A DNA stretch of 64,000 nt from contig NZ_JADQBY010000006.1 of NCBI RefSeq assembly GCF_016278385.1, positions 62,001 through 126,000 on the forward strand, written 5' to 3'. Below, piece after piece: positions 34,704-46,550 of the stretch (the stretch's first letter is position 1; every line of letters begins with the position of its first letter). The notes beneath the pieces were generated by a model. It was not told the origin of the DNA. It did not search any database and saw only the letters and a program-made list of their open reading frames with translations. Made by a program: the position numbers and the translations under genes. The DNA is from Methanolobus sp. (GTDB lineage Archaea > Halobacteriota > Methanosarcinia > Methanosarcinales > Methanosarcinaceae).

Positions 34704-35969
34704 ATGATGCGTGCTATTCTAGTGAAAAGGAATGATCCAAGATCTGAAGATGAAAAGAACGAACTTCAGATGAATGAACTCAGGGAACTAGCCGAAGCAG
34801 CAGGCTATAGTGTCATTGCTGAGATGACCCAAACAAGACATCCGGACAGGAAGTATCATCTTGGAAGGGGCAAGGTCGATGAACTGGCACAGATTGTTGC
34901 TGATCTTAAACCGGATAAAGTGATATTTCATAATCCACTCTCAACCATGCAGATATACAATATATCAGAGACATGTCGTTGCGAGACCATTGACAAGTTC
35001 CAGCTCATCCTTGAGATATTCGCAACCAGAGCAACCACTCATCGTTCCAAATTACAGGTGGAACTCGCAAGGTTGGAATACGAACTCCCCCGTGCCCGGG
35101 CTGTAATTTCCATACTTAAAAAAGATGAAAGACCGGGTTTTATGGGTCTTGGTGGCTATGAGGATTCTTATGCACAGGATGTAAAGAACCGCATGATCCG
35201 CATCAAAAGCGAGCTGGAGACTATAAAGAAGGATAATGAATCCCTCAGGGCACACAGGCATTCCCAGGGTTTCTCACTGATTGCACTTGCCGGATATACT
35301 AATGCAGGAAAAAGTACTCTTTTCAATGCTCTTGTGGCTGAAAATGTAGAATCTAAGGACATGTTGTTCACAACACTGCTCCCCATCACCCGATCTCTGG
35401 ACGTACAGGGACGTGATGTCCTGCTCACGGATACCGTTGGTTTCATTGAGGACCTTCCTCACTGGATGGTTGATGCTTTCAGGTCAACCCTTGATGAGAT
35501 ATTCCTTGCAGATGTTGTTCTGCTTGTTGTGGATTCATCTGAACCTCTTGAAATAATACGCAAGAAACTGCTTGTATGTCATGAAACGATGTGGGATCAG
35601 TTACAGGACGTAGGCATTGTTACAGTTTTCAATAAAACAGACCTTATATCGGAGGAAGAATTACAGGAATGTATGTTAATTCTTGGTTATCTTGCCCCCA
35701 ATCCCGTGGCTGTGTCAGCAAAAGCAGGCTCTGGATTTGATGGACTAAAATCACAGATGCGTGATCTACTTCCTGAATGGAAGCGTGTGACCCTTTCATT
35801 TCCGATCTCTAAAGAGGGGATGTCTATAGTTGCATGGATCTTTAATGAAGGCTTTGTTCATGGTGTGAATTATGATAATGGGATCTCAATAGATTTTGAA
35901 GCCAGAGACAAGATAATAAGCAAAGCTGTTTCTTTAGTTGAAAAGCTATCTTTAGCCTTGTTTTTGTAA
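34704..35969 (+). CDS. hflX: GTPase HflX
   Basis: 421 residues. HflX binds ribosomes and helps split or rescue stalled ones. N-terminal HflX domain with TRHPDRKYHLGRGKVDEL and TIDKFQLILEIFA; a helical linker with LEYELPRARA; then the G domain: GYTNAGKSTLFN (G1), DTVGFIEDLPHWMVDAF (G3), NKTD (G4), SAKAG (G5). Two adjacent ATG codons at the start; AGGA lies upstream. Confidence 0.94.
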   Translation: MMRAILVKRNDPRSEDEKNELQMNELRELAEAAGYSVIAEMTQTRHPDRKYHLGRGKVDELAQIVADLKPDKVIFHNPLSTMQIYNISETCRCETIDKFQLILEIFATRATTHRSKLQVELARLEYELPRARAVISILKKDERPGFMGLGGYEDSYAQDVKNRMIRIKSELETIKKDNESLRAHRHSQGFSLIALAGYTNAGKSTLFNALVAENVESKDMLFTTLLPITRSLDVQGRDVLLTDTVGFIEDLPHWMVDAFRSTLDEIFLADVVLLVVDSSEPLEIIRKKLLVCHETMWDQLQDVGIVTVFNKTDLISEEELQECMLILGYLAPNPVAVSAKAGSGFDGLKSQMRDLLPEWKRVTLSFPISKEGMSIVAWIFNEGFVHGVNYDNGISIDFEARDKIISKAVSLVEKLSLALFL

Positions 35970-36001
35970 TAAATGGGCTATCTATGAACAACCGTAAAGT
36001 G

Positions 36002-36028
36002 TATATACAATAAGATAGTTTGTATATA
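36002..36028 (+). promoter_or_regulatory. Perfect 9-bp inverted repeat with TATA character
   Basis: TATATACAA (36002-36010) and TTGTATATA (36020-36028) are exact reverse complements separated by nine bases. The left arm is TATA-like and about 25 bases before the start of the 36029 stem-loop. It could be an operator over a promoter. Confidence 0.45.
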
Positions 36029-36111
36029 TGCGAACGGGGATTACTTCTCTAATGTACCACCAATCCTATCCAACCACCAACCAACCAATAAATTCTATTA
36101 CCCGTTCGCAT
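36029..36111 (+). ncRNA. Candidate small RNA closed by a perfect terminal stem
   Basis: TGCGAACGGG (36029-36038) and CCCGTTCGCA (36101-36110) pair perfectly; A36028-T36111 extends the stem to 11 bp. The enclosed 62 bases are unstructured and carry a C/A-rich run with repeated CCAACCACCAACCAACC. A TATA-like element lies about 25 bases upstream. No ORF is visible. It matches no RNA class I know. Confidence 0.35.
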
Positions 36112-36172: not shown

Positions 36173-36844
36173 ATGAAGTTCGATCTTCACGTCCATTCCT
36201 GTTATTCAAAAGATAGCAATGCCAGTCTTGATGATATTCTTGAGCACGCAGCCCGAAATGGTCTTGATGGTTTTGCCATATGTGACCATGACCGGATAGA
36301 AGGTGGAATTGCCTGTTCCAGGAGGGCACAGGAGATCGGCTCAGATATGATAGTCATACCTGGCGTGGAAGTTAGTTCTTCCAAAGGCCATGTGCTTGTT
36401 CTTGGTGTTCGTGAACTCATAGAGCCAGGGCTTAGCCCCGAAGAAACGATTGAAAGAGCACGTCAGCAGGGTGCTGTGGTAATAATCCCTCATCCCTTCA
36501 AGATGACATCTCATGGCATTGGCTACATTGAAGGACTGGATGCCGATGCGATCGAGGTATTGAACTCCCGCTGTGTGACCGATGGTCCTAACAACAAGGC
36601 CAGAAAAGCTGCTCAGGAACTTGGATTTCCCATGGTAGGCGGTAGTGATTCACACGAAGCAGAGATGGTGGGGAGGTCATACACTGAGATCGATGCGCAG
36701 CTTCGAACAGTTGAAAGCGTGCTGGATGCCATACGTAAAGGTAATACTCGTCCCGGTGGTGGAAAAACTCCAATGTCATTTGTTGTTAAACAGATGTTCA
36801 TTGGTCATTTGAATAAACTTGGCAGGCGTCTTGGAATAAGATGA
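36173..36844 (+). CDS. PHP-domain metal-dependent phosphoesterase
   Basis: 223 residues. Metal ligands of the PHP fold are all visible: DLHVHSCYSKD (HxH), ICDHDRIEG, GVEVSS, IIPHPFK and GGSDSHEAE. Related proteins remove phosphate from small molecules such as nucleoside 3',5'-bisphosphates or histidinol phosphate. The C-terminal tail (FVVKQMFIGHLNKLGRRLG) is basic. Substrate cannot be told from context. Confidence 0.85.
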   Translation: MKFDLHVHSCYSKDSNASLDDILEHAARNGLDGFAICDHDRIEGGIACSRRAQEIGSDMIVIPGVEVSSSKGHVLVLGVRELIEPGLSPEETIERARQQGAVVIIPHPFKMTSHGIGYIEGLDADAIEVLNSRCVTDGPNNKARKAAQELGFPMVGGSDSHEAEMVGRSYTEIDAQLRTVESVLDAIRKGNTRPGGGKTPMSFVVKQMFIGHLNKLGRRLGIR

Positions 36845-46160: not shown

Positions 46161-46550
46161 CCTGAGAGAGGAAGGACGGTCGCCGGGTCATTTGACCTGA
46201 GGAAAGTCTCCCCACCTTCTAAACACACGAATGTCTGTAAAGGACATCGGGCGAGAGCCCGGGCAGTTGCTTTGCAACTCATGCAGTTCGCTGCATGCTG
46301 GCACAGAAACGATACCGTACCATGTTAATGCTATGATGCTGAAAAGCTGAGGTCGCATGGATCGCGGATGGAACGGCGAATCCTCGTGGGTGCAAGTCAG
46401 AAGTAGGGGGCAATGGTTGTTTAGACCATTCCCGAAGTTTGTGGACGCGTAGCCGAATGCCGTCAATGCAGCTCTTAGGAGCGTATAATCCTGCCATGCG
46501 GGATGAATATATTGCATTAACAGAAGGGAGCTTACTCTCCTCACTCAATA
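46161..46550 (+). ncRNA. rnpB: RNase P RNA
   Basis: Conserved blocks in order: GAGGAAAGTC (46199-46208), CACAGAAAC (46302-46310), GGGTGCAAGTCAGAAG (46388-46403) and ACAGAAGGGAGCTTACT (46520-46536), the universal cores of RNase P RNA. Small hairpins such as AGTTGC-TTT-GCAACT and ATGCAG-TTCG-CTGCAT fill the variable regions. Together with protein subunits it trims the 5' ends of pre-tRNA. Ends are approximate. Confidence 0.92.

Follow-up and report, generated by a model that had tools for sequence, protein, structure and literature searches.

The DNA analysed here, referred to as the window, is a stretch of 64,000 nucleotides from a Methanolobus genome of 2.88 Mb. There is a short intergenic region between an hflX-family GTPase gene and a PHP-domain gene, which carries a putative small RNA gene, named here sRNA A, together with its predicted promoter (Table 1). 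Two inverted repeats were found upstream of the PHP gene. The first is a palindrome composed of TATATACAA (36002-36010), the spacer TAAGATAGT (36011-36019) and TTGTATATA (36020-36028). The second is a perfect 11-bp stem around a C/A-rich loop, and both its arms and the length of the loop agree exactly with an earlier description made from the DNA letters only (the sequence-only reading). The positions of the two repeats were also correct in that description, but they are not nested: they abut through a common base, 36028. The 5' end of sRNA A is predicted at G36030, give or take a base or two, and the 3' end just past the stem.

Table 1. Genes and predicted elements of the sRNA A locus (window positions)
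Feature	Position	Strand	Remarks
hflX-family GTPase gene, upstream neighbour	34704..35969	+	Pfam GTP-bdg_N, GTP-bdg_M, MMR_HSR1; syntenic 27/27
TATA box of sRNA A, TATATACA, left arm of palindrome	36002..36009	+	-28 to -21 from 36030
Start-proximal element, genus GTNGTTNGTA, here ATAGTTTGTA	36015..36024	+	-15 to -6 kept, adjacent columns vary, 27 genomes
Degenerate MsvR-box-like site, TTTG-N8-CGAA	36019..36034	+	Spans predicted start; CGAA half inside 5' arm of stem
Stem of sRNA A, 5' arm, ATGCGAACGGG	36028..36038	+	GCGAACGG invariant genus-wide; compensatory changes in relatives
sRNA A, predicted gene	36030..36111	+	Conservation 27/27, covariance-model search, TATA spacing
Loop of sRNA A, 62 nt, C/A-rich, with conserved GTACCACCAATCCTATCCAACCACC	36039..36100	+	Single-stranded in predicted fold
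Stem of sRNA A, 3' arm, CCCGTTCGCAT	36101..36111	+	Pairs with ATGCGAACGGG, 11 bp perfect
Separate TATA-like box of PHP gene, TTTATAAA	36143..36150	+	About 23-30 nt before ATG; similar box in several relatives
PHP-domain gene, downstream neighbour	36173..36844	+	Pfam PHP and PHP_C; syntenic 27/27

Dinucleotide shuffles were used to estimate how often such repeats arise by chance. Perfect inverted repeats of 11 bp with loops of 3-80 nt occur four times in the window, against 1.05 expected (range 0-3). Repeats with 9-bp arms and loops of 3-20 nt occur six times in this AT-rich window, against 4.9 expected, and therefore the TATA palindrome, taken by itself, is unremarkable. The folded RNA of sRNA A has a predicted energy of -16.5 kcal/mol (z = -4.3), and z ranged from about -2.7 to -6.4 over the folds computed. 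Much stronger evidence than these chance statistics comes from genome comparison. A hairpin of 72-85 nt was detected by DNA search in all 27 Methanolobus genomes, and in all of them the order hflX, RNA, PHP is kept on the same strand. In the alignment the stem core GCGAACGG/CCCGTTCGC is invariant throughout, and a loop core of about 25 nt, GTACCACCAATCCTATCCAACCACC, is nearly invariant, while the flanks diverge. The lack of stem conservation that would have spoken against the sequence-only reading is thus excluded for this genus.

The promoter region was aligned in the same genomes. An independent TATA box at the right distance, as expected of an archaeal intergenic regulatory sRNA, is found in 27 of 27; the positions of the genus TATA region (-31..-24) are invariant or nearly so, and the box of the window copy overlaps this region. 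There is a T(-1)G(+1) at the predicted start. Besides the TATA box and the start-proximal element GTNGTTNGTA, which is also present in most relatives, little is conserved upstream of sRNA A. The notion of a palindromic promoter was not supported: although the left arm of the palindrome is a well-placed TATA box and its right arm overlaps the conserved start-proximal element, the palindrome itself is at chance level and confined to this genome. As a special promoter it was ruled out, since it is not conserved as a palindrome among the 27 genomes. These comparisons support the existence of a small RNA with its own promoter. We estimate at roughly 0.8 the probability that 36030-36111 is an independent small non-coding RNA with its own TATA promoter, probably acting as a regulator in trans. 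The conservation of the stem, the loop, the promoter geometry and the synteny, with some compensatory pairing in relatives, was shown by computation. The RNA would be transcribed rightwards, independently of hflX and PHP, and would remain untranslated.

The same region could be a 5' leader or attenuator of PHP, whose promoter drives PHP and whose stem controls read-through in cis. All Methanolobus genomes and the named relatives have PHP downstream in the same orientation, and T-rich sequence often follows the stem. Yet a separate TATA box lies shortly ahead of the PHP ATG, which argues against a leader role, and in some Methanosarcina PHP also has an MsvR-type box to itself, downstream of the RNA. 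In addition, the spacing from stem to PHP ranges from about 50 to over 250 nt, and attenuation leaves the conservation of a long loop unexplained. We consider this alternative quite unlikely for sRNA A. For a paralogue described below, sRNA B, which lies only about 36-46 nt ahead of a pyrophosphatase-like gene, a leader role is possible.

A small protein was also considered. A peptide beginning MYH(Q/N)... (MYHQSYPTT...) can be read from an ATG in the loop in 24 of 27 genomes, and dual-function sRNAs are possible in M. mazei (PMC11456600). However, three genomes lack the ATG and another has a 1-nt frame-shifting deletion, the C-termini that follow the loop-encoded start share neither frame nor length, no ribosome-binding site precedes the ATG, and the loops of Methanosarcina and Methanococcoides do not retain the peptide. 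The ORF was ruled out on the basis that no consistent reading frame exists across the 27 genomes, as befits a non-coding RNA, and the coding explanation is hardly credible.

A covariance model was searched against relatives. Strong copies were found in 6/6 genomes of Methanomethylovorans (E about 1e-15), and weaker matches in Methanosarcina, Methanococcoides and further genera of the family. In contigs of Methanomethylovorans, Methanosarcina and Methanococcoides the RNA copies are flanked by hflX and PHP, and the copies of the last two genera retain the stem with a strongly diverged loop. A genome-wide scan with the stem pattern was discarded, as it gave many unrelated bacterial matches by chance. 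Over 34 distinct sequences, 96.5% of the stem cells pair, in an alignment that is fitted by the covariance model and hence biased towards structure. Two-sided changes were found at two outer stem pairs (UA to AU and GC to AU) and G-U pairs at two more; the compensatory changes are seen in one related genus, and the covariation score was reached by 7 of 500 shuffles. The stem varies so little that covariation is sparse; the compensatory and G-U changes give modest but real support to pairing as RNA.

The pairing bears on the idea that the inverted repeat GCGAAC...GTTCGC is an untranscribed, paired binding site for a regulator on double-stranded DNA. Nearly invariant arms fit such a site, and CGAA/TTCG are MsvR half-sites, one of which lies within the start-site element. 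This explanation does not account for the compensatory and G-U changes in the arms, for the wide variation in arm spacing (about 45 to 92 nt), for the geometry of TATA box and start, fixed relative to the 5' arm, or for a loop that is conserved and strand-specifically C-rich. Pairing is also retained in candidates with different stems (GGCCGGG, ATGAGCGGG and AGTGGGCAG). A DNA element is therefore very unlikely.

These distant candidates close C-rich loops behind TATA boxes and are candidate homologues. Short hairpins with the GGCCGGG stem were observed at L332, L333, L334, L104 and L126, and with the ATGAGCGGG stem at L349 and L127; their C-rich loops contain GTACCACC or GTACCCCC, and TATA boxes lie ahead of them. 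Possibly, the hairpins with different stems belong to a wider group of Methanosarcinaceae sRNAs with C-rich loops. Some Methanococcoides genomes have two tandem hairpin RNAs about 150 bases apart (L339, G053:C1:594895-595206, and G051:C2:937695-938002). An intergenic region at L317 (G000:C35:123600-123800) carries on the reverse strand GTACAACCCTATCCAACCCCCAAC followed by a GAGACATCC/GGATGTCTC hairpin, and resembles the loop of sRNA A (loop A) on another scaffold. Members of the family scanned against Rfam gave no relevant match at gathering or permissive thresholds. The archaeal RNase P RNA (RF00373, 159 bits) was found at window positions 46164-46546.

In the independent sRNA proposed here, the GC-rich stem would join both ends of the RNA and should protect them, and the long C/A-rich loop, kept single-stranded, would be the recognition surface and working part of the molecule. 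About 25 nearly invariant loop bases within the genus point to a fixed partner, RNA or protein. The loop may pair with particular mRNAs or be bound by a protein, regulatory action in trans being the most likely. A general anti-Shine-Dalgarno RNA, masking the ribosome sites of many mRNAs as proposed in the sequence-only reading, was examined with shuffled loops of the same composition. The loop is C-rich, CCCUCCU occurs in Methanosarcina loops, and the M. mazei sRNA41 and sRNA154, compared with the present family by description only, are reported to mask ribosome sites (PMC5867862). Nevertheless, energy tests showed no preference of loop A for translation-initiation regions or Shine-Dalgarno sequences: 134 of 200 shuffled loops bind 54 start regions of the window (crude gene starts) at least as well as loop A, and 372 of 1000 bind the Shine-Dalgarno sequence as well. 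The loop of sRNA B (loop B) was matched by 31 of 200 shuffled loops on start regions and by 214 of 1000 on the Shine-Dalgarno sequence. Loop A thus pairs no better than its shuffles, and a general masking role seems unlikely.

Near-perfect antisense targets were searched in the 27 genomes with GGTTGGRTRGGRTTGGTGG, allowing at most three mismatches. No conserved target was found, and the matches were mostly the sRNA gene itself. One recurrent match, GGCTGGATGTGGTTGGGGG, falls on the strand opposite a different structured, C-rich leader and was therefore rejected as an mRNA target; the other sampled matches were either chance matches in coding sequence or not conserved. That leader-like RNA, which is multi-hairpin, C-rich and strongly conserved, was observed at G000:C10 around 426 (L382), with relatives at L383, L384 (two copies) and L385. 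It is on the opposite strand and has no Rfam match; a ribosome site and an ATG stand at the end of one instance. It looks like an undescribed cis-regulatory RNA.

The paralogue sRNA B (G000:C23:137239-137322, minus strand) has the same stem and a different conserved loop, and its promoter has a palindrome, TTCGTATATAGGCGAA, directly ahead of the TATA box. MsvR is a redox-sensitive repressor of methanogens, and the Methanosarcina MsvR binds DNA when reduced. The palindrome of sRNA B matches the published MsvR box, TTCGTAN4TACGAA, generalised as TTCGN7-9CGAA, which precedes or overlaps the promoter, msvR/fpaA being an example; the motif by itself is reported to be insufficient for binding (PMC3729527). 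The pattern GTTCGY-N6-RCGAAA-NN-TATA, with one mismatch allowed, was found in 27 of 27 genomes at one to three places per genome, with no match of the reversed control. Most of the places marked are sRNA B and the promoter of a gene for a small iron-sulphur protein of the IscA type (Fe-S_biosyn), the latter examined in eight genomes. At L308 (G000:C49:104620-104646, minus strand) an MsvR-type palindromic box and a TATA box precede a small cysteine-rich IscA/Fe-S_biosyn gene, and the same promoter was observed at L310-L313, L315, L318 and L319. This gene is a candidate member of the MsvR regulon. Across the genome, perfect MsvR boxes show no enrichment: 9 were counted, and 15 in the reversed control.

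An MsvR-type box (TTCG-N7-9-CGAA) is found ahead of the TATA box in 14/14 sRNA B, 8/8 Methanosarcina, 7/7 Methanococcoides and 3/3 other copies, almost always at about -49 from the stem. No box was found ahead of the TATA box in the Methanolobus hflX copies (0/27) or in Methanomethylovorans (0/5). These two groups keep TTNG-N8-CGAA over the start site, never TTCG; in Methanolobus it is present in 27/27, against a mean of 0.7 (maximum 5) of 27 when the upstream base order is shuffled. As the start-site element has TTCG in 0 of 64 promoters, it may not be an MsvR site. Two sister-family candidates have a perfect TTCG-N8-CGAA at the start site, outside the stem. The window copy has only TTTG-N8-CGAA and so lacks the TTCG-N7-9-CGAA box of the regulon. 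The genome probably encodes MsvR itself, to judge from a candidate gene (L328:1551-2291) with an ArsR-type HTH, a sub-threshold V4R domain (E 0.0016) and a box in its own promoter, which adjoins a COG4044-like gene (assigned by eye) in the arrangement described for M. acetivorans msvR. With less force than the existence of the RNA, we infer that the family may belong to the MsvR redox regulon. For the family as a whole MsvR control is likely, and for the window copy it is uncertain, because boxes occur in sRNA B, Methanosarcina and Methanococcoides and only a degenerate one is present here.

Intergenic sRNAs are a known kind of archaeal RNA, while neither Rfam nor the literature searched contained this family itself. 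The M. mazei sRNA162, sRNA154 and sRNA41 are, like sRNA A, intergenic, with their own promoters, and belong to the same archaeal family. sRNA162 has 191 nt and three stem-loops and is found only in Methanosarcina (PMC3510493). It lies beside an MM2441 homologue, while sRNA A has one stem and about 82 nt and lies beside hflX/PHP. Two loops, regulation by nitrogen and a possible encoded peptide are described for sRNA154 (PMC11456600). The Methanosarcina orthologue of sRNA A may already be listed, with a number but no characterisation, among published sRNAs; GCGAACGGG was not found in papers mentioning Methanosarcina. In the same genus, nine conserved cold-induced sRNAs of Methanolobus psychrophilus R15 share an upstream 'cold box' (PMC5378194), which is probably something else, since the MsvR box plus TATA occurs at one to three places per genome, not nine. 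The promoter box of the MsvR regulon is like that of the present family, degenerate in the window copy, and no sRNA is reported as a member of this regulon in the literature searched. In bacteria, OxyS and RyhB are sRNAs of redox or iron stress. They share the logic proposed here, from stress regulator to small RNA to mRNA control, but no homology, the present RNA consisting of one stem that closes a long open loop.

A broader interpretation, which we put forward tentatively and hold to be doubtful, is an undescribed redox-stress sRNA family of methylotrophic methanogens, in which the hflX-PHP RNA and its paralogue would be under MsvR together with msvR and the IscA-like gene. If the RNA belongs to the regulon, oxidation would relieve repression by MsvR, and the RNA branch would come on. 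The 5' arm of the stem would at the same time be one half of an operator at the start site, and this dual use would be part of the reason for the invariance of the arm. Few archaeal sRNAs have known regulators, cross-genus orthologues or functions. In at least four genera this family sits at a constant genomic location; its promoter is clean, and relatives carry the box of a named redox regulator. Because genetics is established in Methanosarcina (PMC11456600), the Methanosarcina copy is directly testable. If the link to MsvR is true, the oxygen response of methane-releasing strict anaerobes would include an RNA arm, formed by this family.
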